A DNA stretch of 22,877 nt, taken from positions 1 to 22,877 of the IMG/VR virus record IMGVR_UViG_3300009068_000214. One strand, given 5' to 3'. The first letter of the stretch is position 1; the number at the start of each line of letters is the position of its first letter. Of this stretch, positions 84-18,720 are shown piece by piece. The DNA is from a virus. Under the pieces are notes generated by a model. The model had not been told where the DNA came from. It worked only from the letters and a program-made list of their open reading frames with translations, and ran no database searches. The position numbers were made by a program, and so were the translations under genes.

Positions 84-1269
84 AATGTCTACGATGAACG
101 CGTTGGGGTTGCAGGGTATTGCGGACCCAACGCTTCGGTATTGGAACCAAACGGGCAAAGCCGGGACTGGCGGGCAGGGCGAGGTGCGGTTCTTTGATTG
201 GACAACTAACCCAGTGCCGGTCATGGGCGGGTCGAACATGGAAGCGGCGAAATCGCTCATTCCTGCGTTTACCTCCGCGCAAGCCCAAGCTATGGTGACC
301 CCCACTGCTAAGCAATACTTTAACGCGGCAACAAACCGGTACTACACAGACCCTACCGGACAATGGACGCCCCCTGCCGGATGGGTGCAAAAGACTTTTA
401 AAGGCGGTGGCGAAGTGGAAACCAAACATTTTGATGGCGGCGGAAGTATTTTTGATTTTGATACCGGGATAGACATTGCGGCAAACAATGACTACCTGAA
501 TCTTTTTGATATGCCCGCGTCGATTGATTTCGCCACCCAGTTAGCCAGTGCTAACGACGTGCTTGCAAATTATGGCGGTGGATACGACTGGGCACTTGAC
601 CCTAATGCAATGACTGGCGATGACGTTGAAAAGTATCTTCGTGGTCTTCCTAGCGAGAATGCTAGTTACGGCGATTACGACCGCACAGCAAGTTATCAAC
701 AGGACATTAAAGACGCCGCCAATGCAAACGGCTCGCTTTCTGGTGTAGCCAAAACAGTTGTAGACAAACTTGCGGGACTGGGGGCTAAGCTCACTCAGAG
801 TGCGCTTGACTCTATAGCAAAAAATCCCGGTGCGTGGCTTTCGGCTCTGGCCGGTGCGGGACTAGGCTATGCCGCGTCAAAGAACAACACGGTCTCACCA
901 ATGGGCCTCCAGAGTCTGGGGTTATCTCAGCAGCAGGTCTATAACACGCTTAAAGGCGGTAACTACGTTGGTAAAGCTATGGGCGGCGAAATCCCCGGGT
1001 ATGGCGCAGGTGGTGGGTTGCACTATCTAAAAGGTGCTGAAGATGGTATGGCAGATAAGATTCCAGCTACAATTGACAACAAGCAACCAGCTCGGTTAAG
1101 CGGTGGAGAATTTGTGATCCCTGCTGATGTCGTATCCCATCTTGGCAACGGTAACTCTGAAGCCGGGGCTAAACAACTTTACGAGATGATGGACCGAATC
1201 CGTCACGCCCGCACCGGCACTAAGCAACAGGGCAAGCAGATCAACCCGGCTAAGTTCACGCCGAAGTAA
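1..1269 (+). CDS. Virion/ejection-type structural protein, 5' end outside window
   Basis: The frame is open from base 1, so the ATG at 85 is probably internal and the gene begins upstream; 422 residues are visible. Support for this: the 15-residue tandem repeat starting TGQTALSTSQVGA lies in this frame before base 85, and no convincing Shine-Dalgarno precedes the ATG. The middle is Gly/Ala/Asp-rich. The C-terminal quarter has a Gly-turn stretch (KAMGGEIPGYGAGGG, about 970-1015) and then SGGEFVIPADVVSHLG (about 1099-1146), a motif type I associate with C-termini of phage tail or internal virion proteins. It is the first of four co-directional genes; the next starts 9 bases after the stop with its ribosome-binding site over that stop. 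Virion role is inferred from motif and context; no enzyme motif is seen. Confidence 0.7.
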   Translation, partial: TGQTALSTSQVGAVTTGQTALSTSQVGAMSTMNALGLQGIADPTLRYWNQTGKAGTGGQGEVRFFDWTTNPVPVMGGSNMEAAKSLIPAFTSAQAQAMVTPTAKQYFNAATNRYYTDPTGQWTPPAGWVQKTFKGGGEVETKHFDGGGSIFDFDTGIDIAANNDYLNLFDMPASIDFATQLASANDVLANYGGGYDWALDPNAMTGDDVEKYLRGLPSENASYGDYDRTASYQQDIKDAANANGSLSGVAKTVVDKLAGLGAKLTQSALDSIAKNPGAWLSALAGAGLGYAASKNNTVSPMGLQSLGLSQQQVYNTLKGGNYVGKAMGGEIPGYGAGGGLHYLKGAEDGMADKIPATIDNKQPARLSGGEFVIPADVVSHLGNGNSEAGAKQLYEMMDRIRHARTGTKQQGKQINPAKFTPK

Positions 1270-1278
1270 GGAACTAAC

Positions 1279-2310
1279 ATGAGTATTCGATACTTTGACG
1301 CGGGCGGTGCAACCACCGTTACAACCGGTTCTAATCCTGCTGCAACTGGCGCAACTGAAAGCACAATATCAAACTGGGCCGCGCCAATTGTTGGCGGCGT
1401 CATCCAGCGCGGTCTTGAGATTGCAGGGCAACCGTACCAGACTTATGGCGGTGCTAAAGTCGCTGGTTCTTCTGATCTTCAGAATAAGGCGTTTACCGGC
1501 ATTCAAGGGTTGACTCAGCCAAACGCGGCGCAAACAAACGCCGCTACAAACATGCAGAACGTGTATACGTCTGCGGCAACTCAACCTGCGTATACGGGCA
1601 CGACGTTCACGTCTAACACGACGGGAATCAATAACGCATTTGATCAAAACGCGCTCAACAGCTACATGAACCCGTATCTGTCGACAATCCTGAACCCGCA
1701 GCTTGCAGAAGCTCGACGAAATGCAGGTGTTGAACAGATGAAAAATCAAGCACAGATGATTAAATCTGGCGCATTTGGTGGTGGCGGTGCGGATTACTTA
1801 AACGCAGAAACCAGCCGCAACTTAGGGACCAAACTTGCCGACATCACCGGCAAGGGATACGGGGATGCCTACACTGCCGCTTTAGGACAGTACAACGCCG
1901 ACCAAAACCGACTACTCAAGGCACTGGAAGATAAAGAACAATCTGGTCAGTTTGGTTCTAAATTGGGGCTTGACTATCTCAAAGAAGCTGGGGATGTGGC
2001 GCAGAATCAAGGGGTATTTGGTAACCAACAACAGCAACTGGGCCTTACCGCAAACAAACAGGAAGCCGACCTTGGTGCTGTCCAGCGCGGTATCGTCCAA
2101 GAAGGTCTTACCTCCGACTACAACACGTGGAAAGAGCAGCGGGACTACCCCAAGACGAACCTTGATTACTTCAGCAACTTGCTCAAACAGTACCCGATGA
2201 CCACCACCAACACGTATGGTCAGGCTGGGAACACTGCTGCTAGTACACTAGGTGGATTGATCACGGCGCTGTCGGCGTACGACATTCTGTCTGGCAAGAA
2301 AACAACGTAA
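1279..2310 (+). CDS. Predicted phage structural/internal virion protein
   Basis: 343 residues. An AAGGA ribosome-binding site overlaps the upstream stop and supports ATG 1279. The N-terminal third is Ala/Thr/Asn/Gln-rich. The middle has MNPYLSTILNPQ and then a Gly-rich GAFGGGGADYLNAE turn, followed by Gln-rich helices (about residues 190-290) with DYNTWKEQRDYPKTNLDYF. It ends in a hydrophobic TLGGLITALSAYDIL segment. A 'MNPY...NPQ' block, GAFGG turn, Gln-rich helices and a 'RDYPK' block occur, as I recall, in virion proteins of podovirus-like phages next to giant ejection proteins. That family memory and the neighbours are the basis for the call; no catalytic motif is seen. Confidence 0.6.
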   Translation: MSIRYFDAGGATTVTTGSNPAATGATESTISNWAAPIVGGVIQRGLEIAGQPYQTYGGAKVAGSSDLQNKAFTGIQGLTQPNAAQTNAATNMQNVYTSAATQPAYTGTTFTSNTTGINNAFDQNALNSYMNPYLSTILNPQLAEARRNAGVEQMKNQAQMIKSGAFGGGGADYLNAETSRNLGTKLADITGKGYGDAYTAALGQYNADQNRLLKALEDKEQSGQFGSKLGLDYLKEAGDVAQNQGVFGNQQQQLGLTANKQEADLGAVQRGIVQEGLTSDYNTWKEQRDYPKTNLDYFSNLLKQYPMTTTNTYGQAGNTAASTLGGLITALSAYDILSGKKTT

Positions 2311-2319
2311 GGGCGCGTC

Positions 2320-4368
2320 ATGTCGATTATCGGATCATCTCTTGAGGCTGTTCGGCGTGACCTGAAGTACATGCCGACTCAAACGCTTATTCAGTATAAG
2401 CAGAACCCGGCAAAAAATGCCGTTGACGGTATTCCGCTGGATATGCTCGCTGGGCTTGAGTTAAGTCGCCGTGCCCAGATGCAGACTGAATTGTCTGCTG
2501 CCGGTGCTCAAAGCGCGGCAAATATGCCGACCGTTACCGATGCTGCTGTGCAGCAACTTACTGGTCAGCCACAACAACCTCCAGCGCCGATGCCTCAAGG
2601 CGCTCCACAACCCGCACCTCAACCACAACAAGCTGCACCGCAGCCGCAACCTCCGCGCCCTCAAGTACCACAGCAACCGCCACCTCCGACTGATGCGCAA
2701 GTGCAGCAAGGGCCAATGCAGCAGACGCCGCAAGGTGGGTTGCCAACTGTAAAGAAAGCAATGGGTGGGTTCATCATCGATAGCCCTGACGACTTGCATA
2801 ATCTGCTCAACGGTAAGCGCGACCTCCTCAAAACAGAGGGTTACGCTGGCGGCGGGATTATTGCGTTTAACGGCGAAAGAAGAAGTAATGTGCCGTCGGT
2901 TTTGGGTATAGGTAGCGACGAGTACAACGAAATCGACCCAAGGGATATGCCAAAAAATATCCCTACAAGGACAGCCGCAGAAGAGGAAGAAAAAAAGCTG
3001 CGTTGGAGCTGGCCTTGGGAATCTGAAGCAGATGAGGCTGTCCGGCGTAAAAAATTAGCAGAAGCTTCTGCGCGAGTAGAGGCAGAAAAGAAAGCTGCTA
3101 AAGGCGAAAAACAAATCCCGATAGGCGATTCGGCTGCAACACCGCCACCGCCACCCAGCATTGCACCGCCGTCAGAACTTGCGCTAACGAAAGGGTTGTA
3201 TGACTTGCTGCGAACACCGTCAGGTGGCGGGGTTAAGTCAAACTTTAAAGTGCCAGATATCAAAGTACCAGACCTGCCAGACCGGTCGGTAGCAAATGCA
3301 CAGATTGAGAGTCTTGCTAATGAGACTGCTGAAGCGTCTAACGCGCGTATGGCTCAGAAAAATTTTGCTGCTGACCTAGAAAGACGTAAATCGCCGTTCA
3401 TGACAGACGCAGAAAAAGCGGCTGCGGAAAATGCTCAATTTAAAAAATATCAAGCACTTTATGACCCGGTAAATGCGGAAACGCAAAAAGTTCTTGATGA
3501 ACGCAAAGCTGCGCTAGAAGCACGGCGTGGTCGGCGTCTGTCTGAAGCTGGGTTGCAACTCGGTCTGGGTATGTTGGGCGGTCGCGGAAACCTAGCCAGC
3601 ATCATCAGCAACGCGGGTAAAGAAGCTGTCGGTACGTACCAGAAGGGTCAAGAACTTGACGACGCGCAAAACGAGCGTATTCAGGATATGCACCTGAAAC
3701 AACAGCAAGCTCTAGTTGCCCAGAAAGCCGGGAACATGGAACTTGCACATCGTCTGACACGTGAAGCTCAGGCCGATAAACTTGCTATTGACAACTATGA
3801 AATTGCCAAGCAAGAGAAAGCGCTTGGTGCGCAGCAAAAAGCTGCTGAGATTGCTGAAACTACACGCGGTCGCCAGATGACTGCGGCGGTGCATCTTGAT
3901 AATGTTCAAAAAGCTCTTGACATGGCTAAGCTGGGCTATGACATGAGTTCTCAGTTAGCTGAAGCTAAGTTTAATATGCAGCTTGAATTGCATAGGTTGC
4001 AGGTGGCTCATGCTGATACTGCTCGGCAGCTACAACTGGAGAGATTCATCTATCAGATCAGTGAAAACCAACGTAAAGCCGAAGCCGCGCGACTACCGAC
4101 GCCAGAGGGGCTTGCGTCAATATACAAACTGGTAGACCAAGATTTTAGTACAAGTCCCGGGCTGTTAAATGCTGGTATTGCTAAACTGGGTGGTGCGCAA
4201 TTGGTGGCCGATTATCAGCGCAATCCTAACGACCCTAAAGTAGCAGCGGCATACGGTGAAGTAGCAAGACGTGTGCGAGACCTAGCGGCACAAGAAAAAC
4301 TTTCTGTAACACGCACTCCGGGCGCTGCTATGGATTTGAGTTCGGCTTATAGAGCTACGGAACGGTAA
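2320..4368 (+). CDS. Predicted internal virion protein, Pro/Gln-rich then coiled coil
   Basis: 682 residues. A TAAGGG sequence at the upstream stop gives the ribosome-binding site for ATG 2320. Residues about 80-145 are an extreme Pro/Gln/Ala low-complexity linker. This is followed by KKAMGGFIIDSPDDL and YAGGGIIAFNGE, Gly-turn motifs like those in the first gene. A second Pro-rich stretch (about 270-285) precedes a long charged, Ala/Glu/Lys/Gln-rich helical region (about 320-600) that should form coiled coil. Inside this is a short Gly/Leu-rich patch (LQLGLGMLGGRG). The stop is two bases before the giant gene's start, so the two are probably co-translated. An internal or ejection-complex role is inferred from composition and position only. 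Confidence 0.55.
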   Translation: MSIIGSSLEAVRRDLKYMPTQTLIQYKQNPAKNAVDGIPLDMLAGLELSRRAQMQTELSAAGAQSAANMPTVTDAAVQQLTGQPQQPPAPMPQGAPQPAPQPQQAAPQPQPPRPQVPQQPPPPTDAQVQQGPMQQTPQGGLPTVKKAMGGFIIDSPDDLHNLLNGKRDLLKTEGYAGGGIIAFNGERRSNVPSVLGIGSDEYNEIDPRDMPKNIPTRTAAEEEEKKLRWSWPWESEADEAVRRKKLAEASARVEAEKKAAKGEKQIPIGDSAATPPPPPSIAPPSELALTKGLYDLLRTPSGGGVKSNFKVPDIKVPDLPDRSVANAQIESLANETAEASNARMAQKNFAADLERRKSPFMTDAEKAAAENAQFKKYQALYDPVNAETQKVLDERKAALEARRGRRLSEAGLQLGLGMLGGRGNLASIISNAGKEAVGTYQKGQELDDAQNERIQDMHLKQQQALVAQKAGNMELAHRLTREAQADKLAIDNYEIAKQEKALGAQQKAAEIAETTRGRQMTAAVHLDNVQKALDMAKLGYDMSSQLAEAKFNMQLELHRLQVAHADTARQLQLERFIYQISENQRKAEAARLPTPEGLASIYKLVDQDFSTSPGLLNAGIAKLGGAQLVADYQRNPNDPKVAAAYGEVARRVRDLAAQEKLSVTRTPGAAMDLSSAYRATER

Positions 4369-4370
4369 AT

Positions 4371-7300
4371 ATGCCAGTCATCAACGTACCCAATCTTGGG
4401 CCGGTTAACTTTCCGGACTCGATGCCGCAAGATGAGATCAAGGCACGGTTTACCGATCTTGCTCAACGCGCCGCTTCCAAGTTTGAGTACAAGCCAGACT
4501 ACCGAGAACTAGGTCTTGGTCAGCTAATCAAGGGCGGCTTTAACCGCTCGATGTCTGCAATCGGTAGCGGCATTACCGATATCGTCCCTGCAATGGTCGG
4601 CTCGGCTCTGGGGTACGAGGATTACGCCAAAGAGCAAATGGCCGAAGCGGCGGCAAAACGTCAGCGTGCAGAGCTTGAGAACCCGACAGGGTTCCGGTCG
4701 TATAAAGAAATTCGCGGCCCGGGTGATTTTGTTGGTTACGCAGCCGAGACTCTTGGTGAACTTGGTCCCGATATTGGGGCCATGTTGGTCCCCGGTGGGG
4801 TCGGCAGTGCTATCGGTAGACGTGTTGCTATGCGTGGTGCAGCCGAAGTTGCTGGCGCTCGCGCTGCCGAATCTGTCGCTGCTAAAGGTCTTGCAGGTGA
4901 GGCGGCTGAAGCCTACTCAAAACGTCTTACTGATGCCGCAGTTAACCGCGCTGGACGTGCTGGTGCCGAGACTGGCTTAAATTTAGGTATGTATGGTGGG
5001 GCGTACGGGCTTAATACGCCTGAGACGTTCCAAGGGATCTACGAAAAGACGGGCGAGTTTCACCCCGGGACCGCCGCAGTCTTCGGCGCTGCAATATCGG
5101 CGCTTGATACTGTACTACCAAACTACTTGCTAAAACAACTTAGCCCTGCGGCTAAGGGCAAACTGGCGTCTGAGCTTATCAATCGGTCAAGCATTGTTGA
5201 ACCGACTATCAAGATGGGTATCGCTAAGAGCGCCAGTAAAGCTGCGCTCGGTGAAGGCGGTACGGAGGTTCTGCAAGAGGGTCTGAGCATCCTCGCTGAG
5301 AAAACCGCTGGCGCTGCTGGTGAGTTGTTTTCAACCGATAACGTCGACCGGCTGATTAATGCTGGCCTGAAGGGTGCAATCGGTGGCGGTGTACTCGGCG
5401 TCCCCGGCGGTGTTAGAGAGGCATATGCCGAACGTGATGCTGCGCGTGAAGAGATCGCGCGGCGCGAGGGTTTGCCTCCTGAAACACCACCACCGCCCCC
5501 TGCCGCGCCGGTTGATTATGACCGCCCTGCGGTTACGCGCCGCCCAGATTATGTCGCTCGGCCCGGGTTGCGTGAGACCCCGTTGCCAGATGTTGACCCT
5601 AATCAGCTTGATATGTTCCCGGGCGAGAAAGCTCGGTTCAGTCTTGATGAGGTGCGTGCGGCACGTATCCCTGAGCCGGGGTCAAGCCACGTCGAGAACC
5701 TTGAGGTTGCCAAACTTAAACTTGGACGTGGTGACGAGCTAACCAACGGCGAGATTCAGCTTCTACTTGACAATAAACTTGTTACACCGACTGAAGCTAA
5801 AAACCTTCGTAGGGCCGAAGAAGAGGCTGCACCTCCTGAAGTGTTGCCGGGACAGCAGACGTTGCCGGGAATGTCGGTTCCCGAGTTGGCGTTCAGAGAT
5901 GCGGCATATGCCGACACAATCACACAACCGGAATTACCTCTTACTCGGCCAATCACGTCCCGTTTAGATGCCGCGCCACCGCCGCAACAAGAGCAACCGG
6001 CCCCACCACCTGTACCAGAACCCGGAGAGCAACCTGAACTTGACCTTATGGGTGGGCGCACGGGTGAGCAACTAAAATTCTGGAATGCAATCGACAAAGC
6101 CGAACGCGGCAGGGGTATACCGCTACCATTTCCGGGGATGCCGATCAGGGGCGAGGACTTGCGACGGAGGCTTGAAGGCCGACCTGAACCCAAGCCTGAT
6201 GAACGCGCTAACGTAATTAGTCCTGAAGTTCTTGCTGCGCTTGGCGTTACTCCGCAGATGCCAGCCCATAAGCGCACGGTTGGTAAGAGTTTAGATGACC
6301 CGCAAGAACGTGAGCAGGTTGCCAGTGCATTTCGTGGGTTGGCTAAAAATAAACAAGTACCACAAGAAACCCGGGACAAGCTCACGGCTATCCTGAAAAG
6401 CCCGCTGTTCGCTACTCAACCGGAGCTTAACTTTGAAGCACCCCCAGCAACCCCAACCCCCTCGGTACCTGTCACTCCACCAAGTGGAACAGGCCCTAGC
6501 GTACCTAGCGGACCCGGACCGGTCGTTCCCCCCGGAGGAGTTGCAACACCTCCAGCTACCGGAGTGGAAACAACTGAACCACCTGCTACACCAACTGGAA
6601 TGGGAGCGGCAGAACAACCCGGTGCAGTAGAAGCGCCGGAACAACCGGCACCGATGGATCTTGGCACTGCACTGCGCGGCAAACCTCGATCAGAAACGGA
6701 AACAAAGCAAGCGCAAGAAGATCTTAACAAGTCATTAGAAGAAACTGGCGAAGGTACTTTCCGCGCTGCTCCGGGTGTAGACATGACCCGTATGGCGAAC
6801 CTGTTAGGTCCGCAGTTGTACGGCAACATGTCAAAAATTTCCTCGGTCACCGTCAAGGAGATGTTCCAAAACGCGTTCGACGCGATCAAAGATGCTTTGG
6901 TGAAAGGCGGTTTGACCGAAGGAATAATCAATGTAGATACTGACGAACGCAAACGCACAATTAGAATAACTGATAACGGTATGGGCATGACGCCCGAAAT
7001 TATCAGCAAGGCGTTCTTGACGATTGCCGGTACGCATAAAGAATCTGGACGGGGTTCCGGCGGGTTCGGCGTTGCGAAGATGCTATTCCTGTTTGGGAAT
7101 AAAACCTTAAAGCTGGAAACGACGCGTGACGGGCTTACCAGTACACTAGAAACAACCGGCCCGGAACTGTTGGCCGCATTCTCAGACCCAAGTAAAGCAC
7201 CAAATGTTACAACTGTAAGAACTGGTAAAAAGTCCGGTACATCAATAACCGTTACGATTCCCGATACGTACTTAGATGAAGAAAACCAACCTCAACATAT

Positions 7301-10300
7301 TTCATTTGGTTCTGAATATACATTCAAACCAATACTTATTAAAAGTCCGCTACTAGAAAATATCGAAGTTAATTATAATAGCGAAGTGTTACCAATTGGT
7401 AAAAACTTTCCAGCAAAAGATTTTACTGTACTTACAAACGTAAAGTTTCCGTGGGGTAACGCACGCATTTTAGTTAAAGAAGGCAGAGATTTTAATTATG
7501 GTGGAAGCAATTTAATTGTTTTATCGCAAGGGCTTTATCAGTTTGGGCATACACTAAAAGACGGCCCCGGCTACGATGCAAATACGTTACCCTTTACGTT
7601 TTTTGTAAACATAGAACCTACCGTAGCGGCTGAAAACGCTAACTACCCGTTTGCTCTTAACCGGCAAGATTTTTCTCCGGCACAAAAACCGGGCGTCGAA
7701 AAAATATTCAAGTACCTACAGGCTCTGTACACAAATAAAACTACGGCTGAATCCGCGCAAAGTTTTGGAAAACTAGAACTACTATCATCAAGAGGCACCC
7801 CAGTTTCAACTGAAATTGATTTGGCTGTACCACCGGCGCAAAAAGGCACCATCCTTGAAATTGACAAAAACGATATTGTTGAAGTTAAAGATGGGGTGAT
7901 GTACGTAAATAATAGACAGGTCCCAGAACTTACGCCGCAAGCTCTTGAGGCGATGCGTGCTGACCCGTCGCAATTTAAAGTTGACCAAACCCTGATCGAC
8001 CGCAATAAAATTTTAGTACACGACAACGTAGATGTTCGTGAAGACTATGATGATCCAGACTCCGACAAAGTTCCGTTTTTGGAAAGAGCACGCCGCGACC
8101 TTGGCGCAGACAGGGTAAACAAGTTTATCGTTGGTATTGGTAACGTCTTTAAGTTTCTTCGTAATGAAGCGTATGGGGCAGGGGTAAAAAGCTATGGAAA
8201 TTTAAATAAATACGAAACTGTCACTGATGTTCCGGTTGGGGTAAGTTTTGATCCGGGGTATTACGGTGTAAGTATTCGGTTGCCGTTCTCGGGCATGATG
8301 ATCAACCCCACGAGCATTAGAGGTGTTGACAAAAATGATACTAGTTCAGCAGATGTTCGTGCTGATGCGGCTGCTACAATGGTCGGTACAATGGTGCATG
8401 AAATTGCGCACCACGACGAACGGAACCACAGTGAGAGCGGGTTCATCCCGGCGTTGCAAAATCTGGCGGTGCGTCTTGCAATATCTGGGTCAACGCAAGA
8501 AGCCGTTAGAGACCTGATAAAAGTTTTTAGCGCAGATGTTGACGTACTTACTTATTTCTTAAAGGCTGGTGATGGAAATCTCACAAATCGTGGAATCAAG
8601 TTGGAAGGTGCCGCATCCGAAAGGGAGAGCGCGGGGAGCGCAAGCGTTCCTCAACGGTCTACTCGCCCCAGCGCTTCAGGAGGGAATGGAAACGTCAGCC
8701 CCGGAGTACGTCAAGCAACTTCAACTGGCGGTAGACCTAGCGCCCCAAGCCCAAAGCCCGCAGCAGCACCTGCAACTCCTCAACCAAGCGCTATCGCAAC
8801 AGCGGTCAGAGGAACCGGCACGGTCAACGCAAACGTCGCCAACGCAGCGGTCGACCCCAAAGGCAAGTCGGCAGTAGAGCTTCTAAATTCGTTTACACAA
8901 GCACTGACTAAGCTGCCGTTTATTACGCAGCAGCGTGCTGATGCAATCAATCAATTCTTACGCAACACCGTAGATACATCAGGCCGTGCGTTCCTGCTGA
9001 TGTCGATGCCGCTAAACGCGTTGACCGAGGTGGCCGAACGCTACCTTCCCGGTGCAAAACAAATTGCCATGCTTGACCGACTTAAGTCAGGCGATGAGTA
9101 CGCTCGCAATAAGATGATTGAGCCTGTGGTGCTTGCAGCGGAAAAGTGGGCTGCGAAGTTTCCTAAGCTGGTCGATGCGTTTAACCGAACCGTATACCGC
9201 AGCACAGTTGCCGGGGTCGACCCAAGCAAACCGGAATCAACTTATTACGATAAGCCCGGACTGCCAAAGCTGGACAAGGACGGCAACGATCTGGCTCAAG
9301 CGTGGAGAGATCTCCAAGAAGACTACAAGGCAATCGGCCCGGGCGGTCAGAAGCTCTACGCCATGATGCGCGATACGTACGCGTCCATGTATGAGGAGAT
9401 CAAAAAGGCGATTGTCGAAAAGATCTCAGCAACAACCGACAATGCTGACCTTGCTAAAAAGATTAGTGGCGAGGTACTTGCAAAGCTGGCGGCTAAAGGT
9501 GGTCTTGACCCCTACTTCCCGCTGACCCGTTACGGTAACTTCTGGGTTTCGTATAAAACCAAGGGTGGTCCCAAACTGGGGCAAGCAGATTTTTTCATCC
9601 GTGCCTTTGAAACGGAAGTTGAGCGTGAGCGGTTCATCAAAGCTCTGGAAGCTACCGATGAGATTGCACCCCGGACCAGCGTAGACGAAAACGGTAAGAC
9701 GATCACAGAACCGCCAATCCAAAGGTTCTCACAGATCTCTGAGATTAGCTATAAGAACACTCCGGCAAACTCGTTTGTCAACGGTGTGCTCAAGGTTATG
9801 GAGGTTAACAAAGTTCCGGAAGACGCCAAAGAGCAGATCCTCCGCCTGTTCCTGTCGACCTTGCCAGAAACATCTTTTGCCCAAGCGTTCCAAAAGCGCG
9901 GTAACGTAGCCGGTTTTGAGCACGACGCGATCCGTGCGCTGCGCGAGAAGTCGTTCAGTATGTCCCGGCAGTTGTCGAACATGAAGTACGCATACAAGCT
10001 CATCAGTGCGCGTGATGACTTGCGTAAGAATGTTAAGGCGATGGGTAAGGGCGAAGGCGCGACAGACAACCGACTCGCTAAAGAATACTTTGATGAGATC
10101 GATAAGCGAGTCAAGTTCATCATCAGCCCAGAAACATCAAAGCTGTCGCAACTACTGACTTCTTTCGGCTTCACCTACCTGCTCGGCTTTAACGTATCGT
10201 CTGCGGTCATCAACCTGACCCAAGTGCCGCTGATTGTGTTGCCGTATCTCGGCGGCAAGTACGGGTTTTCAGAGACAACCAAAGCACTCGGCAATGCCTA

Positions 10301-11840
10301 TAAGGTGTTTGCAAACACCGGCATCAAAGAGACCGCGATACTTGAGTTCAAAGATGCGAACGGCAAAGACGTAAAGGTCAAATCTCGGGCAATGCCGTCT
10401 ATCGAGAACCTTGATATCAATCGCCCCGGCGACACTCCCGAAGCTAAAAAAGAAAGAGAGCTTGCTGCCCACTATAAAGAGCTTATTGAAGAAGGCACGT
10501 TGCAGGGGCAACTCAACCGGTCGGCGCTCTATGACATCCTTGACGTTAGTGGTGCAAAGAATCCGTTAGCTGTTGCCAATGCCGCGTCGGGCTGGATGTT
10601 TCATCATGCCGAACGTATGAACCGGCAGATCTCGTTAATGGCGGCATACGATCTTGAGTTGAGTAAGACCAAGAATCCCACGGTAGAAGATAAGGTTGCC
10701 GCTGCTAAACAAGCTATCTATGTGTCCGAGCTGACCAACGGCGGGACAACTGCAACCTCGGCCCCACGTATTGCGCAAGGCAGTATCGGTCGGGTGCTAT
10801 TCATGTTTAAGCGGTACGGTGCATCCATGTACTACCTGCTGGCTAAGAACTTTAACGAAGCCATCCGTGCCGGTCAGTATGAGCTTGATGGGTTGAAGGC
10901 TGAGCTTGCCAAGACCAAAGATGCCGCTGAGATCACCAAACTCAAAAAGCAAATTGCCGAAGCCGAAGAACTCGCAAAAGTAAACCGGGGTATTGCTCGT
11001 CGGCAACTGGGCGCGACTTATGCTTCTGCCGCGCTGTTCTCTGGGTTGCAAGGGCTACCGTTGTTTGGGGTGCTTGCCGTTATCTACAACATGTTTGCTG
11101 ATGACGACGATGACGACATGGCGACCGCCGTGCGTAAATCGACCGGCGAGCTTGCGTACAAGGGTCTGGTCAACGCTCTGACCAACATGGACGTAGCGTC
11201 CCGCGTAAGCCTGACCGGCCTGATTATTCGGGATAACAAACTATCGTCCGGATCGCAGACAGTGGCGGAAGCGTTTGGCGATCTTATGGGCGGTCCAGTG
11301 TACGGTATAGCGACCAAAGTCGAACGCGGCGTTAATCAAATCCGTGACGGGCATATCGAACGTGGGGTTGAAAACATACTTCCTTCGGCGCTTAGTAACG
11401 TGTTAAAGGGCTTCCGCTACGCCACATCCGGCACGACCACGTTGCGCGGCGATGCTATCACTGGTGATGTCAACCCAGCAAATGCGATTGCTCAGGCGTT
11501 CGGCTTTGCACCTGCCAATTACACCCGTCAGTTGGAGATCACTGCGCGTGAGAAGGGTATGGACAAGGCAGCGACTGCTGACCGTATCAAGTTCCTCAAT
11601 AACATGTATATCGCCAAGCGGTTCAACGACATCGAAGGTGTTGCTGATGCCCGTGCAGATCTTGAGCGGTTGTATGAGAAGCACCCCGGCTTCAAGAAGT
11701 TCGGCACGCTAGACGAAACTATTGCGCGGTCGATGCGGCAGCACGCGCTGACTACAGAGCAGATGAAACCGTTTGCCGGTGTGACGATCAGCAAAGCTAT
11801 GCGTGATGAGATCCTGCAAGACATGCGAGAGTTTGAGTGA
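4371..11840 (+). CDS. Giant polyvalent virion protein with GHKL ATPase and zincin motifs
   Basis: 2489 residues. In order: an N-terminal Ala/Gly-rich helical region with hydrophobic stretches (about 1-365, for example GELGPDIGAMLVPGG); Pro-rich linkers (about 365-800) carrying QLDMF 412-416 and QPELxL/F at 519, 554 and 683. Next is a GHKL ATPase (from about 805): N-box E830/N834/D837, G1 motif DNGMGM 868-873, G2 motif GRGSGGFGVAK 893-903. A possible transducer-like region includes YPFALNRQDF (from 1092). A zinc-protease motif HEIAHH begins at H1343, with H1353 as possible third ligand. A Ser/Pro/Ala linker (about 1416-1500) leads to a long C-terminal region with a hydrophobic stretch 1935-1964, FMFKRYG near 2144, a membrane-like segment about 2213-2240 followed by six Asp (2244-2249), and a helical tail. 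This region resembles, from memory, 'large polyvalent protein associated' domains. It is probably packaged and ejected; ATP binding is well supported, targets unknown. Confidence 0.8.
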   Translation: MPVINVPNLGPVNFPDSMPQDEIKARFTDLAQRAASKFEYKPDYRELGLGQLIKGGFNRSMSAIGSGITDIVPAMVGSALGYEDYAKEQMAEAAAKRQRAELENPTGFRSYKEIRGPGDFVGYAAETLGELGPDIGAMLVPGGVGSAIGRRVAMRGAAEVAGARAAESVAAKGLAGEAAEAYSKRLTDAAVNRAGRAGAETGLNLGMYGGAYGLNTPETFQGIYEKTGEFHPGTAAVFGAAISALDTVLPNYLLKQLSPAAKGKLASELINRSSIVEPTIKMGIAKSASKAALGEGGTEVLQEGLSILAEKTAGAAGELFSTDNVDRLINAGLKGAIGGGVLGVPGGVREAYAERDAAREEIARREGLPPETPPPPPAAPVDYDRPAVTRRPDYVARPGLRETPLPDVDPNQLDMFPGEKARFSLDEVRAARIPEPGSSHVENLEVAKLKLGRGDELTNGEIQLLLDNKLVTPTEAKNLRRAEEEAAPPEVLPGQQTLPGMSVPELAFRDAAYADTITQPELPLTRPITSRLDAAPPPQQEQPAPPPVPEPGEQPELDLMGGRTGEQLKFWNAIDKAERGRGIPLPFPGMPIRGEDLRRRLEGRPEPKPDERANVISPEVLAALGVTPQMPAHKRTVGKSLDDPQEREQVASAFRGLAKNKQVPQETRDKLTAILKSPLFATQPELNFEAPPATPTPSVPVTPPSGTGPSVPSGPGPVVPPGGVATPPATGVETTEPPATPTGMGAAEQPGAVEAPEQPAPMDLGTALRGKPRSETETKQAQEDLNKSLEETGEGTFRAAPGVDMTRMANLLGPQLYGNMSKISSVTVKEMFQNAFDAIKDALVKGGLTEGIINVDTDERKRTIRITDNGMGMTPEIISKAFLTIAGTHKESGRGSGGFGVAKMLFLFGNKTLKLETTRDGLTSTLETTGPELLAAFSDPSKAPNVTTVRTGKKSGTSITVTIPDTYLDEENQPQHISFGSEYTFKPILIKSPLLENIEVNYNSEVLPIGKNFPAKDFTVLTNVKFPWGNARILVKEGRDFNYGGSNLIVLSQGLYQFGHTLKDGPGYDANTLPFTFFVNIEPTVAAENANYPFALNRQDFSPAQKPGVEKIFKYLQALYTNKTTAESAQSFGKLELLSSRGTPVSTEIDLAVPPAQKGTILEIDKNDIVEVKDGVMYVNNRQVPELTPQALEAMRADPSQFKVDQTLIDRNKILVHDNVDVREDYDDPDSDKVPFLERARRDLGADRVNKFIVGIGNVFKFLRNEAYGAGVKSYGNLNKYETVTDVPVGVSFDPGYYGVSIRLPFSGMMINPTSIRGVDKNDTSSADVRADAAATMVGTMVHEIAHHDERNHSESGFIPALQNLAVRLAISGSTQEAVRDLIKVFSADVDVLTYFLKAGDGNLTNRGIKLEGAASERESAGSASVPQRSTRPSASGGNGNVSPGVRQATSTGGRPSAPSPKPAAAPATPQPSAIATAVRGTGTVNANVANAAVDPKGKSAVELLNSFTQALTKLPFITQQRADAINQFLRNTVDTSGRAFLLMSMPLNALTEVAERYLPGAKQIAMLDRLKSGDEYARNKMIEPVVLAAEKWAAKFPKLVDAFNRTVYRSTVAGVDPSKPESTYYDKPGLPKLDKDGNDLAQAWRDLQEDYKAIGPGGQKLYAMMRDTYASMYEEIKKAIVEKISATTDNADLAKKISGEVLAKLAAKGGLDPYFPLTRYGNFWVSYKTKGGPKLGQADFFIRAFETEVERERFIKALEATDEIAPRTSVDENGKTITEPPIQRFSQISEISYKNTPANSFVNGVLKVMEVNKVPEDAKEQILRLFLSTLPETSFAQAFQKRGNVAGFEHDAIRALREKSFSMSRQLSNMKYAYKLISARDDLRKNVKAMGKGEGATDNRLAKEYFDEIDKRVKFIISPETSKLSQLLTSFGFTYLLGFNVSSAVINLTQVPLIVLPYLGGKYGFSETTKALGNAYKVFANTGIKETAILEFKDANGKDVKVKSRAMPSIENLDINRPGDTPEAKKERELAAHYKELIEEGTLQGQLNRSALYDILDVSGAKNPLAVANAASGWMFHHAERMNRQISLMAAYDLELSKTKNPTVEDKVAAAKQAIYVSELTNGGTTATSAPRIAQGSIGRVLFMFKRYGASMYYLLAKNFNEAIRAGQYELDGLKAELAKTKDAAEITKLKKQIAEAEELAKVNRGIARRQLGATYASAALFSGLQGLPLFGVLAVIYNMFADDDDDDMATAVRKSTGELAYKGLVNALTNMDVASRVSLTGLIIRDNKLSSGSQTVAEAFGDLMGGPVYGIATKVERGVNQIRDGHIERGVENILPSALSNVLKGFRYATSGTTTLRGDAITGDVNPANAIAQAFGFAPANYTRQLEITAREKGMDKAATADRIKFLNNMYIAKRFNDIEGVADARADLERLYEKHPGFKKFGTLDETIARSMRQHALTTEQMKPFAGVTISKAMRDEILQDMREFE

Positions 11841-11844
11841 AAAA

Positions 11845-11867
11845 AATCCCGGCGCTGGGCCGGGATT
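11845..11867 (-). terminator. Intrinsic terminator of the leftward operon
   Basis: A perfect 9-base-pair stem (AATCCCGGC / GCCGGGATT) with a 5-base loop. Read on the - strand it is followed by a T-run (complement of the A-run 11840-11846), the classical intrinsic form. On the + strand the stem is followed by AACCTGATAG with no T-run, so it should work poorly for the rightward virion operon. It sits directly after the stop of the giant gene. Confidence 0.8.
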
Positions 11868-11928
11868 AACCTGATAGGACAGGAAGAGGAGACAGCAATG
11901 AGGCTATCGCGATAGAGTCTACACGAAT
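11868..11928. other. Inter-operon gap with 12-base palindrome and 5-codon minigene
   Basis: The gap contains a perfect 12-base palindrome CTATCGCGATAG at 11904-11915. It also has a purine-rich Shine-Dalgarno-like tract AGGAAGAGGAGAC (11881-11893) ahead of ATG AGG CTA TCG CGA TAG (11898-11915, + strand), a five-codon open frame whose end is the palindrome. No longer gene fits here. It could be an operator, a minigene or the remnant of a lost gene. Confidence 0.4.
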
Positions 11929-12148: not shown

Positions 12149-15004
12149 CTAGACGGGTATAGCGTTACCGATTGCTGCTGCCGCAATGTTCTGCTCCATT
12201 TCCTCGTCCATAAACTGCGAGCAATCCAACACAACACAGTCAGCCGGGGGCAGGTTGAGTCGAGTGCCTCGGCTGATGCGCACCTTCTTCATCTGACCTG
12301 ACGTAGACCCCGCCCTGAGCTTGTCGTACAGACTCGGGTAATGTATCTGCTGTTTGTTACACCATTCGCGAAACGGCTTGGGCAACAGGTACAAACGCTT
12401 TATGTCGTACTCGTACCGCGCGACCAGCGTCATCCTCGGCGTCGAATCTGGAATAATCAGCGCGTCATCCTGATTCGGCGTGCGTGCATCCGACGTGCTC
12501 TTGATGCGGAGAATATTGTTGTAGTTCTCCGCAAGATATGCGGTTAATGTCTCTTCAATAGACCCCTCCATACCGAGCAACCGCTCCTTGGCTTTCTGGA
12601 TTGTCTCGGCCCACCACTTGATGATCGGCGGGATAGAGAACTTAATCAGACCGGCACGCCGTGCGATAATCAGTCCCGTAAACGCCGATGCCGCTTGAGC
12701 CGACCAGAACCGGTGCGGCTGTGACAGGTCGCCAATCAGATCTAGCTTTTCCTGCGTTTGCTGAAAGAGCTTCTGCGCCCCGTCTACATCGTTCATGATG
12801 TATTGCAGATATGGCACACAAGCGTGACCATAATTGTTGCTCAAGTACCGGTTCAGCGCGTCAGTTTCGGTCTTGGCTTCAAAGACAAACGCCTTCGCCT
12901 GATACTCTAATACCCGGGTCGCTTCGGCTTTGGGGATCGCCTTGTACATACTGACACGATCTAGCAGACTGGTGTTGCCGGTCGTGCAGATGTTCAGATG
13001 CCACGGGTCACCACGGTAACGCTCCTCGTTACTCTTGCCAGACATTCGGTTGCGCTGATGCCCGCCAGTGGTTTGATATAAGAAGTCACTGGCTTCCTTG
13101 GGATGGATGTTGCTCAACTCGTCAATCGGGTGAAAGATGTTTTTGTAAATCTCAGTCCGGTTGAACTTAGAAGCAATCGTATCCCGCTCGTGCGACATGA
13201 TCTCGTCCGGGTTGCCCCAGATGCTCGCACCCGCCAGAATTGCAGTGGTCTTACCCAAGCCGGGGTCCGGACTATAGATATGAAACACGCACGCATGCTG
13301 CGTTGCAAACTGCATCAGGGGCGAGCCAAAACTCAAACCGATCACGAACTGGTGCATCTCCAGCCCGGGGCGGTTATAGAAGTCCATGACGTTATTCCAG
13401 CCCTCAATCGTCCCCTTGGTTTGGAACGTGCCAAACATCTTTACTGTGGCGCTTGACGGTGGGTTGTGGTCGACCCGATCTGGACGGATGTCCTTATCCC
13501 CAACAATAAATGAATCGTACCGACTGTCGACCCAACCGAACTGCCGGTGCGCTTTTTCTGCTTTCGCATTCGCCTGTAGGTTATTAACCCATGCACTTAC
13601 GTATGCCATCAACCCCTCCATATCTATAACGGCCAGCCCATGTGGGGCAACGTGCCGTCTGAATTCGTCTTTAGATAACAAAGAAACCAGCGGGACGGTA
13701 AATTCCCGCACTCCATCTTGAGGTAAATGCAACCGCATTACGATTGCTTCGCCAGCATCCGGATCGTTCAACCGCTTCAAAACATAAAAGTCGTTGTGAT
13801 ACACAGGGATCTCAAGCGGGTCCCCTTGCTTATCCTTGGTCCGCTTAAATACTCCTCCTGCCTTGCCCCGGAAATACGGCGCAGGGTATTTGGGTATCAC
13901 GTACGTTTGTTTAGCTACAAAGTTTGCAACCTCGGGAACGTCCAGTACGACGTTATCCTCGTCACTCGCTTCCTGCACCTCACGACCTAAAGCTATAGGG
14001 CTTTTAATCGTGTTCCGGTGCGGGCATTTTCCGCAGATGCCGGGACTGTAGTTATCAAACGTAGCGCAGGTATACGGACCTTTGATCAGCGCGGCTTTCG
14101 CTTCTGTGGCCTCGAAAGTGTAGCCCGGGTGCGCCTTAGAGATCCTATGGATCGCCTTGTCACCGTCCGTGCAGAACTTCGCGACCGACAGACCCGCTCG
14201 CCACATGGGTTCGTCCAGCGTGGACGCCTCCTCGATCACACGCCTGACCTGCTCACACCCGCGCCCTGCTGCCGTTTTCTCCAGAATGTTTTTAAACACG
14301 CTGACGTAACTACCGGCAAGGGCCTGACTCACGCCGCTCATCTCTCTCGGCACGAATGACCCGACCGTTAACTTGTTGATCACGGGTGCTGGCACATGTG
14401 CTACCAGATCCGCAAACGCAGTAAACGCAACAGGTGCGGCAATCGGGCTGAGCAGCGACACCTCAAGTGCAGGGTCGCTCTTAAAGTTCAACGTCCCCGG
14501 CATACGCAATATGCGAGCAGAATCAGCAGTGACTGCCGGATCAGCATTCATACCTTGTGATGCCAGAAGGGCTTTGAATTGCTCCGCTACAGGCGTCCAG
14601 AGTGTTGCCGCAATCGACTCGGTTAAAGCCCAGTACGCATGAACACCCCGCCCGGAGCCGACTATCGTAGGACGTGGAAACTTATTAGCTGAACAGAAAG
14701 ACTTCAGCGCACGAATGCACTCGACCGGATCAGCGTAGGGCTTACCCTCACCCGCATCGATATCAATAAAGAACGACTTTAGTTGCTTAGCATTGCTCTG
14801 AGTTCTTGAACCGGAGTTCTCAAACGTAGCCAGTGCAAAGTAAGCGTTCCACCCAGATTCGACTAGAGACTCGGTGTATGTTTCAAGAGCTTCAAGACTT
14901 GTAAAGAACTTCTGTTGTACACGATCTGAATCCAGCTTAATTCCATATCCACAGTAATACCCCTCATTACTTAGGACCGTCTCCAGAAATTGTCTCGCTT
15001 GCAT
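12149..15004 (-). CDS. Primase-helicase fusion (AEP/PrimPol-like + DUF927-like ATPase)
   Basis: 951 residues. The N-terminal domain has archaeo-eukaryotic primase (PrimPol) signatures: FFIDID with D81 and D83 as metal ligands, SGRGVHAYW 117-125 with H122, and DSARILRMPGT 161-171. A Cys cluster follows (C313, C324, C327, perhaps C279), likely binding zinc or an iron-sulfur cluster. The C-terminal half looks like the DUF927 family of phage replication ATPases: SFGSPLMQF (558-566), a P-loop SPDPGLGKTT 578-587, and IDEL with D628/E629 as Walker B. A helical tail may be a winged helix. It would synthesise primers and probably unwind the fork ahead of the family A polymerase. The start ATG 15004 has GGACAG close upstream. 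A 60-base gap containing a hairpin separates it from the SSB-like gene. Confidence 0.8.
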   Translation of the reverse strand: MQARQFLETVLSNEGYYCGYGIKLDSDRVQQKFFTSLEALETYTESLVESGWNAYFALATFENSGSRTQSNAKQLKSFFIDIDAGEGKPYADPVECIRALKSFCSANKFPRPTIVGSGRGVHAYWALTESIAATLWTPVAEQFKALLASQGMNADPAVTADSARILRMPGTLNFKSDPALEVSLLSPIAAPVAFTAFADLVAHVPAPVINKLTVGSFVPREMSGVSQALAGSYVSVFKNILEKTAAGRGCEQVRRVIEEASTLDEPMWRAGLSVAKFCTDGDKAIHRISKAHPGYTFEATEAKAALIKGPYTCATFDNYSPGICGKCPHRNTIKSPIALGREVQEASDEDNVVLDVPEVANFVAKQTYVIPKYPAPYFRGKAGGVFKRTKDKQGDPLEIPVYHNDFYVLKRLNDPDAGEAIVMRLHLPQDGVREFTVPLVSLLSKDEFRRHVAPHGLAVIDMEGLMAYVSAWVNNLQANAKAEKAHRQFGWVDSRYDSFIVGDKDIRPDRVDHNPPSSATVKMFGTFQTKGTIEGWNNVMDFYNRPGLEMHQFVIGLSFGSPLMQFATQHACVFHIYSPDPGLGKTTAILAGASIWGNPDEIMSHERDTIASKFNRTEIYKNIFHPIDELSNIHPKEASDFLYQTTGGHQRNRMSGKSNEERYRGDPWHLNICTTGNTSLLDRVSMYKAIPKAEATRVLEYQAKAFVFEAKTETDALNRYLSNNYGHACVPYLQYIMNDVDGAQKLFQQTQEKLDLIGDLSQPHRFWSAQAASAFTGLIIARRAGLIKFSIPPIIKWWAETIQKAKERLLGMEGSIEETLTAYLAENYNNILRIKSTSDARTPNQDDALIIPDSTPRMTLVARYEYDIKRLYLLPKPFREWCNKQQIHYPSLYDKLRAGSTSGQMKKVRISRGTRLNLPPADCVVLDCSQFMDEEMEQNIAAAAIGNAIPV

Positions 15005-15064: not shown

Positions 15065-15961
15065 TTAATCGTCCCAGCCGTTCACCAGATCACTAAGATC
15101 TGCCGCCGCAGAAGCGGTAGCTTTCTTGGGCGCAACTTTCGGTTCTTCCACAGCTTCTTCGGCCACAGGCACGGGCTTCGCCGCAGCTTTCGGCGCTGGT
15201 TGATTAAACGCGGCAGGAAGAGGTGCAACAGGTGCGGGCTTAGCCCCGCTTGCGTTAAATGAAATAGCTTCAGCCGCTTCCGCTGAATTACGCATCTCGT
15301 TGATCGCCCCGAACTCCTCCTCGGTAACCGGACGCACTGGCTTGAAAAACAGCTTAGGAGTCGGGCTGTTGATATCAAACCGCATTTCCGTAACCAGACC
15401 CACAGCCGGAAGCTTGTGCGAATCTAAGAAGCTACCGTACGCCTTCAAGGGCATCTTGCCGCCCTCGGCATCACCAAAGACCGACTTAGCGGGGATGATC
15501 ATCTGGTATACCTTGCGCTGTTTGATCTCGCCGTCGAGCATCACAGCGATCCGCTTGTGGAACGTGCAAGCACGCCCGTCGCCTTGACCAGACCCCTTGA
15601 TGTTCTGAGGGCAGTCCATACACTTGGTAGCCTGACGATCAGCAGCAGGGACCTCGGCATCCGGCGTAGCCGAATTGGTTGACCAGCACTTGGGCTGAGC
15701 GTTCTGCCCTTCAACGTACGCCCCTGCAAAATGCCAGCGTTGCACGTCTTTATGTGCCTTGATAATCACGGCGTTGAGCATCCGATCTTCACTCACGTGA
15801 ATTTCTTTATTGCCCTGCATCATCCGGAACGCGCCGCCCTTGAGCGAGATACGTAACGGACCTGATACGGCGACTTCGCCAGCAAGTGAACTGCTGGTGT
15901 CATCCTCAAGCGCCTTCAGGTAGGAAGGAAGGCCGGTCTTAAAAATAGTCATGTCGTTCAT
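15065..15961 (-). CDS. SSB-like replication protein with acidic C-terminal tail
   Basis: 298 residues from ATG 15961. A GAGGA site (15966-15970) five bases upstream decides this start over the in-frame ATG at 15991, which lies inside the previous gene. Residues about 25-215 are a mixed alpha/beta globular region with four cysteines (C92, C114, C117, C132) suggesting a bound zinc. A Pro/Ala-rich linker then leads to an acidic end, DLSDLVNGWDD. A globular domain, disordered Pro/Ala linker and acidic hydrophobic tip is the architecture of single-stranded DNA-binding proteins, whose tips recruit partner enzymes. The position between helicase and primase genes matches. The OB fold itself cannot be confirmed by eye; a DUF2815-type phage SSB is the nearest idea. 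Confidence 0.6.
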   Translation of the reverse strand: MNDMTIFKTGLPSYLKALEDDTSSSLAGEVAVSGPLRISLKGGAFRMMQGNKEIHVSEDRMLNAVIIKAHKDVQRWHFAGAYVEGQNAQPKCWSTNSATPDAEVPAADRQATKCMDCPQNIKGSGQGDGRACTFHKRIAVMLDGEIKQRKVYQMIIPAKSVFGDAEGGKMPLKAYGSFLDSHKLPAVGLVTEMRFDINSPTPKLFFKPVRPVTEEEFGAINEMRNSAEAAEAISFNASGAKPAPVAPLPAAFNQPAPKAAAKPVPVAEEAVEEPKVAPKKATASAAADLSDLVNGWDD

Positions 15962-15965
15962 AAAA

Positions 15966-15970
15966 TCCTC
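15966..15970 (-). promoter_or_regulatory. Ribosome-binding site fixing the SSB-like start
   Basis: GAGGA on the - strand, five bases before ATG 15961 and overlapping the TGA stop of the upstream HTH gene (15969-15971). This supports translational coupling and the shorter SSB-like start. Confidence 0.7.
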
Positions 15971-16256
15971 AAACGTCTTTATCAGTTGCAAAGGTGAAAT
16001 CGAACTCCAACTGCACAGGGGCCGCAGGGTCGATGGTTTCTGCTTCAGCCGGAGCCGGTGCAGCTTTCTCGCTCAGCGTTTTGGCGCGGAGCGCGGCATC
16101 CACATCAGCGATGCGGAACCTGTAAGTATTACCTATTTTTAGGTAAGCCGTGGGTGGGATCACATCTTTCCGTAGCCAACCACGAATGGTAGACACCGAG
16201 ACGGTGTAATACTCCGCGACCTCCTCAATCGAAACGTACTTCGCAATCTCATCCAT
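15969..16256 (-). CDS. MerR/excisionase-type helix-turn-helix protein
   Basis: 95 residues. Residues 8-57 form a compact winged-helix of the excisionase/MerR (HTH_17) type: VSIEEVAEYYTVSVSTIRGW, a wing around IPPTAYLKIGNTYRFR, then ADVDAALRA. Such proteins bind DNA and bend or mark it in recombination, replication or transcription. A Pro/Ala linker (66-80) leads to a C-terminal peptide VQLEFDF (81-87) that resembles a sliding-clamp-binding motif. The start overlaps the upstream stop by eight bases. It lies between two replication-linked genes and no integrase is in the window, so a replication or transcription role is more likely than excision; this is inference. Confidence 0.65.
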   Translation of the reverse strand: MDEIAKYVSIEEVAEYYTVSVSTIRGWLRKDVIPPTAYLKIGNTYRFRIADVDAALRAKTLSEKAAPAPAEAETIDPAAPVQLEFDFTFATDKDV

Positions 16257-16647
16257 TTTTCTTTACCGTGATGGAGTATTCGCTATCCACATTCAAACCC
16301 GGTGGAAGCAGGTCGGGGTGTTCCTCAAGGAACTGTTTGGTGTTCTCCTGATGGAGACGTTTCTCGTACAGATCGGTAGCGCCGTGCTCGACAACAAACT
16401 TGCCAAACGACTCCCAATCGTTTGTGCTAAAGCGTTTCTTGACGGTGCGGTAGAACAGCCCACTCTCGGTACGGACAGACTCGACCCCGTGCTCTTTGCA
16501 GTAGCCCAGAAGCGCGGACTTGACCTTAGCCATGCTGGCTTTTAGCTCGTCGTCCTGCTTCTTGAAGTCGGCCAGAAGCTCAGCGTGAGTGGTGCGCATT
16601 TTCAAGTAGACGCGGACTAGCCGCTCTACTGCAATATCTTCAGCCAT
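16249..16647 (-). CDS. Conserved small phage protein, coiled coil plus alpha/beta domain
   Basis: 132 residues. A strong site, AGAGG, precedes ATG 16647. Residues about 8-50 form an amphipathic helix or coiled coil. These are followed by an alpha/beta region with VRTESGLFYRTVKKRF, then NDWESFGKFVVEHGATDLYE, KRLHQENTKQFLEEHPDLLP and a final strand YSITVKK. I recall close phage proteins encoded next to SSB and polymerase genes. The helix-plus-strand layout recalls Mu Gam or Gp157, proteins that protect DNA ends or aid recombination, but I see no diagnostic motif. Function unknown; association with replication or recombination is inferred from its neighbours. Confidence 0.6.
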   Translation of the reverse strand: MAEDIAVERLVRVYLKMRTTHAELLADFKKQDDELKASMAKVKSALLGYCKEHGVESVRTESGLFYRTVKKRFSTNDWESFGKFVVEHGATDLYEKRLHQENTKQFLEEHPDLLPPGLNVDSEYSITVKKNG

Positions 16648-16679
16648 GTTACCTCTTCCTCTAGTTGTAGTAGCAGAAT

Positions 16680-16695
16680 GTGTAGTGTTCTACAC
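16680..16695. repeat. Short inverted repeat at the SNF2 stop codon
   Basis: GTGTAG-TGTT-CTACAC, a perfect 6-base stem with a 4-base loop that spans the SNF2 helicase stop (16690-16692) in the 42-base gap before the next gene. There is no T-run, so it is not a terminator. It may stabilise RNA or be chance. Confidence 0.3.
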
Positions 16696-18243: not shown

Positions 18244-18276
18244 GTGACCCTGTAGTATTTTTACTCAAAGCAGAAT

Positions 18277-18305
18277 AGCCTGAACAGGGTGTACCTGTTC
18301 AGGCT
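18277..18305. promoter_or_regulatory. Strong stem-loop upstream of the SNF2 gene
   Basis: A perfect 11-base-pair inverted repeat AGCCTGAACAG / CTGTTCAGGCT with a 7-base loop, about 34 bases before the SNF2 start. Neither strand shows a proper T-run after it (the - strand continues ATTCTGCTTT), so operator, RNA-stability element, weak terminator or origin element all remain possible. Confidence 0.5.
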
Positions 18306-18467
18306 CTGCGCCGCTTCCCAATCGAGGTGAGGACTGTGGCGGCTGGTGCGGTTAAAGGGTTACTGACGTGCCCCGGGCAGCACACTCACACCTGACTACT
18401 GCCCAATTAGTTCCTAAAGCGACTGGAGAACAGCACGAAAACCAGTCGAATAGGCGCATCTATTCTA
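18306..18467. other. Structured non-coding gap downstream of the HNH gene
   Basis: With the stem-loop above, this makes 224 bases without a convincing gene inside an otherwise packed operon. Two more inverted repeats occur: GGGCAG/CTGCCC at 18375-18380 and 18399-18404, and CGACTGG/CCAGTCG at 18420-18426 and 18442-18448. A 35-codon frame on the - strand (18352-18459) has no ribosome-binding site. No clear promoter or tRNA is seen. Candidate replication origin, RNA element or regulatory gap. Confidence 0.4.
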
Positions 18468-18719: not shown

Positions 18720-18720
18720 T

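Follow-up and report, generated by a model that had tools for sequence, protein, structure and literature searches.

A contig from an uncultured phage encodes a giant protein in which an HSP90-type ATPase and a predicted zinc protease are joined in a single module. In the AF2 model, residues ~801-1412 are one module: a GHKL N-domain of HSP90 type comes first, then a middle (transducer) domain resembling that of HSP90, and last a predicted zinc-protease domain. This module may be a protease that is switched on by ATP only once inside the cell. Polyvalent proteins of phages are already known; it is the coupled GHKL-Wss1-like module that appears to be new.

The window, meaning the whole stretch of DNA analysed, is an entire linear virus contig of 22,877 bases from a metagenome. 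The giant gene (4371-11840, + strand) is intact, begins with ATG and encodes 2489 residues. The initial annotation had described one frame with all the GHKL motifs and a zinc-protease motif, and each lies exactly where it had been placed: EMFQNAFDA at residue 830 (E830/N834/D837), DNGMGM at 868, GRGSGGFGVAK at 893 and HEIAHH at 1343. It had missed H1353 as a third zinc-ligand candidate, the HSP90-like middle domain with R1098, the LPD39 domain and the C-terminal tail-700/PLxRFG region. The features of the window are:

85..1269, + strand: probable virion gene of the same run, no family (position alone)
1279..2310, + strand: DNA ejection protein (PHROG 4287, E 8.6e-9, PHROGs)
2320..4368, + strand: probable virion gene adjoining the giant gene upstream, no family (position alone)
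4371..11840, + strand: giant polyvalent protein, 2489 aa (LPD39 and tail-700 domains)
4371..5465, + strand: residues 1-365, Ala/Gly-rich N-terminal region (composition by block)
5466..6740, + strand: residues 366-790, low-complexity linker rich in Pro, at 14-20% over most of its length (composition by block)
6771..7295, + strand: residues 801-975, GHKL (Bergerat) ATP-binding N-domain with E830, N834, D837, D(N/D)GxGM and SGGxGxAK (Pfam, NCBIfam, AF2 and Foldseek, invariance)
7296..7760, + strand: residues 976-1130, HSP90-like middle/transducer domain with invariant YP..(N)R containing R1098 (Foldseek alignments, R1098 in 85/85)
7761..7994, + strand: residues 1131-1208, connector of the module, directly upstream of the conserved HDN at 1217-1219 (AF2, alignment)
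7995..8606, + strand: residues 1209-1412, predicted zinc protease domain, HEIAHHDERNH at 8397-8429 (AF2 secondary structure, invariance, weak YgjP-like/WLM matches, Wss1p)
8976..9446, + strand: residues 1536-1692, LPD39, large polyvalent protein associated domain (Pfam E 6.8e-16)
9510..11822, + strand: residues 1714-2484, C-terminal carrier, tail-700/PLxRFG, 'DarB-like' PHROG 10089 (NCBIfam, PHROGs, Parlo gp81)
12149..15004, - strand: DUF927 primase/helicase, convergent neighbour and end mark of the virion gene run (Pfam, PHROGs)
16690-18243, - strand: SNF2-type helicase, ordinary phage replication gene
18721-19389, - strand: exonuclease, ordinary phage replication gene
19383-21206, - strand: family A DNA polymerase, ordinary phage replication gene

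From its composition, the N-terminal region (residues 1-365) is perhaps a packaging or membrane part. The Pfam scan found no domain in the Pro-rich linker that follows. Docking to the sliding clamp through a beta-clamp-like QLDMF motif in this linker was considered and rejected, since among 81 giants only 3, which are closely related, have such a motif.

The GHKL part of the giant exceeds the Pfam gathering score for HATPase_c (residues 828-964, E 2.5e-6), also matches HATPase_c_3, and has weak matches to HSP90-family and Top6B models in NCBIfam. Both Pfam models were matched by all 51 relatives scanned, as was the HSP90 family PRK14083 of NCBIfam (51/51). Given the Pfam score and the unanimity of the relatives, the GHKL motifs are not chance occurrences. 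An AF2 model built on alignment A2 (51 diverse relatives, 33-53% identical to the window) reached a mean pLDDT of 86 and a pTM of 0.75 over residues ~801-1412, and supersedes an earlier model from 7 sequences (pLDDT 58). Searched against the PDB with Foldseek, its closest solved structures were HSP90/TRAP1 (E 2.6e-13), followed by GyrB and MORC2; many alignments to HSP90 chains covered ~370-430 columns and some were longer, which is enough for the N and middle domains. The position of R1098 resembles that of the catalytic Arg of HSP90 and suggests, by analogy, the same role. The HSP90-type GHKL ATPase of the initial annotation is thus borne out by profile and by predicted fold. The profiles it had named for checking (HATPase_c, HSP90-family models and an LPD family, here LPD39) were all matched, and structure prediction of the module gave a clear Bergerat fold, so that the adverse outcome it had named, absence of both the Bergerat and the zincin fold, did not arise.

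In the viral Foldseek library, an unnamed protein (A0A516L4L2) matched the entire module with 35% identity (E 4.8e-54), and the remaining matches were mostly RIIA, HSP90 and topoisomerase proteins at E 7e-14 or weaker. PADLOC matches were generic GHKL ones only. A Salmonella Infantis SARB27 locus (L102, 2956-4791) encodes a 611-aa HtpG-like protein with a large gene after it, and the N-domain of this protein outscores the tested RIIA proteins against the module profile.

The zinc motif is longer than first noted. HEIAHHDERNH has the form HExxHx5H, with H1353 as the third ligand candidate, and is followed by F (F1358); most aligned rows have HE(I/L/M)AH and an Arg two residues ahead of the final His. 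The AF2 model orders the domain as a helix, three strands, the HExxH helix and a further helix, the same order as described for zincin-like metallopeptidases in Iyer et al. 2017 (PMC5512222). At E<=1 the Pfam YgjP-like model matched 47 of the 51 members and WLM 40 of 51 (best E 2e-5), with scores below the curated cut-offs in members scored singly, and neither model matched the zincin domain of the window itself. A zincin profile (A4) run against PDB sequences found Wss1p as its best match (E 0.0065), then a metzincin and then the minigluzincin proabylysin. Zincins are absent among the Foldseek matches listed because HSP90 chains occupy the top places. Motif, secondary structure and weak profile matches therefore agree on a predicted zinc protease of the zincin type, as had been proposed, and by motif and weak profile, the fold not proving it, the protease appears most like Wss1/YgjP.

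Many of the giants have a second HExxH domain upstream or downstream of the module, either HELLHAATNRK-like (L021, L022, L029, L050 and others) or HEVLHAATEA (L026, L031, L037). Profile comparison did not relate these other HExxH domains to the module zincin (hhalign probability <1%), and the Pfam polyvalent MPTase was not among the 25 families listed for the 51 relatives. Polyvalent MPTases have HExxH with a Glu as third ligand in the next helix, according to Iyer et al. 2017 (PMC5512222). The idea that the zincin is the usual polyvalent MPTase was rejected on the hhalign result and on the third invariant candidate, which is a His (H1353) and not a Glu.

An IMG/VR scan with the window sequence gave 8 loci, and one with a 7-row alignment gave 113 relatives, of which 80 were kept. 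All ATP and zinc residues are invariant in A2 (51 rows). Across 85 distinct modules, with identities to the window as low as 33-35%, E830, N834, D837, D868, G872, K903, R1098, H1343, E1344, H1347 and H1353 are identical in every one (85/85), and M873, K890, G897, G900, Y1092, P1093, R1264, D1294, N1312 and F1358 are also found without exception in the 84 further modules. Invariance of both the ATP and the zinc residues over this range argues that both activities are selected.

Pairing of the ATPase and protease halves is near-obligate. When the halves were searched separately (zincin, A4; GHKL/transducer, A5), 140 of 141 zincin frames also contained the GHKL part, a count based on the best 80 loci per scan with several loci on the same contigs. 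The sole zincin-only frame (L107) is cut off by a contig end, and no GHKL-only frame was seen among the best 80 loci per scan. A possible exception lies outside the 141-frame set, at L092 and G020:C54:57-1947, where GHKL (379 aa) and zincin (~417 aa) are in adjoining frames, through a split gene or a frameshift; its contig belongs to a Neisseriaceae MAG and encodes a phage-type ribonucleotide reductase.

The module is also the best-conserved part of the giants. Coverage of the window giant by blastp matches from 80 relatives is ~79 at residues 901-1300, 47-58 at 1601-2400 and at most 7 at 1-700. Complete giants have 1895-5219 aa (median 2873), and the module starts anywhere from residue 63 to residue 1552. 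Together with the finding that it is the only part detectably in common with the window protein in 7 of the 14 relatives inspected, this indicates that the module is self-contained and has moved as a unit. The giant at L035 (2-16651) runs for at least 5550 residues in one frame and has the module at 3334-4028. In a Deltaproteobacteria MAG contig (L091, JAUYMQ010000012.1, 3-6242) the giant frame has the module and a ParB-like stretch, and its ending resembles peptide deformylase (GVGLAATQV...EGCLSVPG...HEMDHL), possibly a further polyvalent domain or a misassembly.

The giant gene is the last of a same-strand run that contains the PHROG 4287 ejection protein gene, and the opposite-strand DUF927 primase faces it. 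An ejection-like gene lies upstream in 39 of the 54 relatives with enough upstream sequence, and a convergent primase is present in 42 of 59. In the contig of a near relative (L012) the upstream genes encode tail-fibre-like, endonuclease VII and virion structural proteins. A T7-like portal (PF12236) scored above cut-off in 3 of 18 relatives' contigs. Directly after the stop of the giant gene, between the convergent runs, window positions 11841-11870 hold a terminator-like, hairpin-like sequence (AATCCCGGC-GCTG-GGCCGGGATT). In Pseudomonas phage Rollin, a large gene (L250, record 15452-22006) likewise converges with the gene of a primase that is related to the one in the window; the large gene is annotated as OppA oligopeptide-binding, probably a misannotation.

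Polyvalent proteins are very large, have several domains including LPD or effector domains, are linked to late or structural phage genes, and are packaged and passed on to the host. The giant combines LPD39, GHKL, zincin and tail-700 domains in 2489 aa, its gene lies downstream of the PHROG 4287 gene, and a comparable link recurs in the relatives (39/54); it belongs with the polyvalent proteins. Its tail-700/PLxRFG domain (residues 1714-2167, E 2.4e-108, NCBIfam) and its DarB-like antirestriction match (PHROG 10089, E 3.4e-55, PHROGs) lie in a C-terminal region of 989 residues that matches 70 phage records. One of these is gp81 of Serratia phage Parlo (3764 aa, C-terminal match E 5.6e-60), whose gene directly follows virion protein genes. 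Another C-terminal relative, H66_0060 of Pseudomonas phage H66 (47645-59008 of the record), is annotated as structural and verified in the virion by mass spectrometry. The GHKL-zincin module is absent from Parlo gp81 and from the Vibrio 1F273_PE002 giant. The simplest inference from these alignments would be a common C-terminal carrier with exchangeable payloads, the GHKL-protease module being one of them. The view of the initial annotation, a polyvalent and probably ejected protein, is strengthened by LPD39, by the 'DNA ejection protein' gene upstream and by a C-terminal region common to podophage giants, and the window giant is most likely injected into the host.

The module is common in environmental phages and rare in cellular genomes. 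It was not found in ~50,700 annotated phage records: queries with the modules of the window and L019 gave no match, and those with L017 and L045 gave only GHKL-length matches, chiefly to RIIA, none covering 80% of the query. A direct relative in a cultured phage was rejected on these results. A scan of GTDB contigs (one genome per species, ~85,000) found 3 loci, all on MAG contigs <10 kb, and 1 of 398 Pseudomonadota genomes matched, this being one of the same three loci, in cellular searches that were limited by pattern pre-selection. A cellular origin of the module was rejected, as these scans gave no convincing cellular copy.

In HSP90, GyrB and MutL, the GHKL clamp closes when ATP drives the N-domains to dimerise. 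The explanation we consider best, held tentatively and with slightly less than even confidence, is that the giant is a virion-borne polyvalent protein ejected with the DNA, and that its ATP-gated protease is turned on in the host and cuts host proteins. The HSP90-type N and middle domains would form an ATP-operated dimer clamp acting as a switch for the fused protease, which would sit at the clamp exit, since it is placed where HSP90 carries its C-terminal domain. The virion has no ATP supply and the cytoplasm has ATP, so the clamp could serve as an arrival switch: in the capsid it would stay open with the protease idle, and in the cytoplasm ATP would close it round a bound protein, which would be presented to the protease. 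Host proteins would be cut early, plausibly those on the incoming DNA, such as defence complexes. This explanation builds on the module, its intact active-site residues, its obligate pairing and its link to virion proteins, as read from sequences and model; ejection of the window giant, ATP gating and host targets are the parts that we infer, the gating by analogy with HSP90/MutL clamps. In a narrower version, which we regard as unlikely, the module would be a phage counterpart of Wss1/SPRTN, a nucleotide-switched protease loaded by its clamp onto protein on DNA, and during the first minutes of infection would clear the incoming genome of defence or nucleoid proteins, with cytoplasmic ATP as the on-signal.

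Alternatively, the protease may cut the very giant that carries it, either within the head or once in the host, freeing effector domains, with the GHKL clamp timing the cut and host proteins not being targets. This is possible, if less probable than cleavage of host proteins. Autoproteolysis has been proposed for polyvalent-protein metallopeptidases beside host attack, with both left open in Iyer et al. 2017 (PMC5512222); the long Pro-rich linker ahead of the module and the suitability of ATP as an arrival signal for timed self-release point the same way. However, the second, unrelated HExxH domain of many relatives could do the processing, so that self-cutting does not explain why an ATP-driven domain is needed, and an ATPase clamp is a costly means for a cut in cis. 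A role as self-chaperone, in which the HSP90-like part would refold a giant unfolded for passage through the tail and the zincin would remove failed copies, draws on the HSP90 N and middle domains as the best fold match; it is very unlikely, because the HSP90 C-terminal dimerisation domain is replaced by the zincin and giants on the same carrier, such as Parlo gp81 and the Vibrio giant, manage without the module.

The module might also be an RIIA-like counter-defence factor, its protease being no more than the C-terminal domain that varies among RIIA-type proteins, and such proteins are indeed its main sequence matches in cultured phages and are frequent among the viral fold matches. RIIA combines GHKL with a C-terminal domain that varies and has been discussed as counter-defence (PMC7824862); this makes a conflict role for the module somewhat more plausible. 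Against an RIIA identity, the similarity ends within the GHKL domain, HExxH occurs in none of the 4 RIIA proteins tested, HSP90-family models score equally or better, and no RIIB partner was noted in the window; we give this account as little credence as the self-chaperone. Naming the module an RIIA protein was rejected, its profile matching only the GHKL domain in 3 of 4 RIIA proteins and giving T4 RIIA no significant score.

If cleavage of host proteins by an ATP-switched protease is correct, an energy-dependent protease is added to the enzymes that phages deliver ready-made. With its near-obligate pairing, its abundance in environmental phages and its rarity in cells, the module makes ATP switching and early-infection substrates directly testable. 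An HSP90 clamp fused with a zinc protease is not known to us from any other enzyme. A full-text search, which did not extend to subscription journals, found no paper describing a GHKL-zinc protease fusion, and HSP90, GHKL and histidine-kinase ATPases all go unmentioned in the main text of Iyer et al. 2017 (PMC5512222).

Among known systems, the phage-type polyvalent proteins described by Iyer et al. 2017 (PMC5512222) have in common with the window giant their size, several effector domains, an LPD domain, a metallopeptidase and a late-gene position, but the zinc protease of the giant is of another type than their polyvalent MPTase. Parlo gp81 and H66_0060 have a homologous C-terminal region, and their genes likewise close the virion gene run. 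JC1 gp69, a 4515-aa DarB-like protein of which 51 unique peptides were found in CsCl-purified virions (PMC9144972), and P1 DarB, which is believed to enter the cell from the virion (PMC9024508), are virion-borne giants likened to the window protein by the DarB/DarB-like name only. DarB-like/PLxRFG podophage giants carry methylase/SNF2-type payloads, whereas the window giant carries GHKL-zincin. RIIA (T4 rIIA and orthologues) has an N-terminal GHKL domain with the same preceding helix and a suggested counter-defence role, but it lacks HExxH, is not part of a giant and is encoded next to rIIB, so that the likeness is limited to GHKL. The HSP90 family (TRAP1, HtpG) has the N- and middle-domain fold, the ATP motifs and the middle-domain Arg in common with the module; it has its own C-terminal dimerisation domain where the module has a predicted zinc protease, and for lack of that domain the module is not an HSP90. 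Wss1/WLM, YgjP and SprT-like zinc proteases have the same HExxHx5H followed by F and the same helix-strands-helix-helix order, a likeness limited to the motif surroundings and below curated cut-offs, and unlike them the zincin of the modules analysed here is always fused to GHKL.
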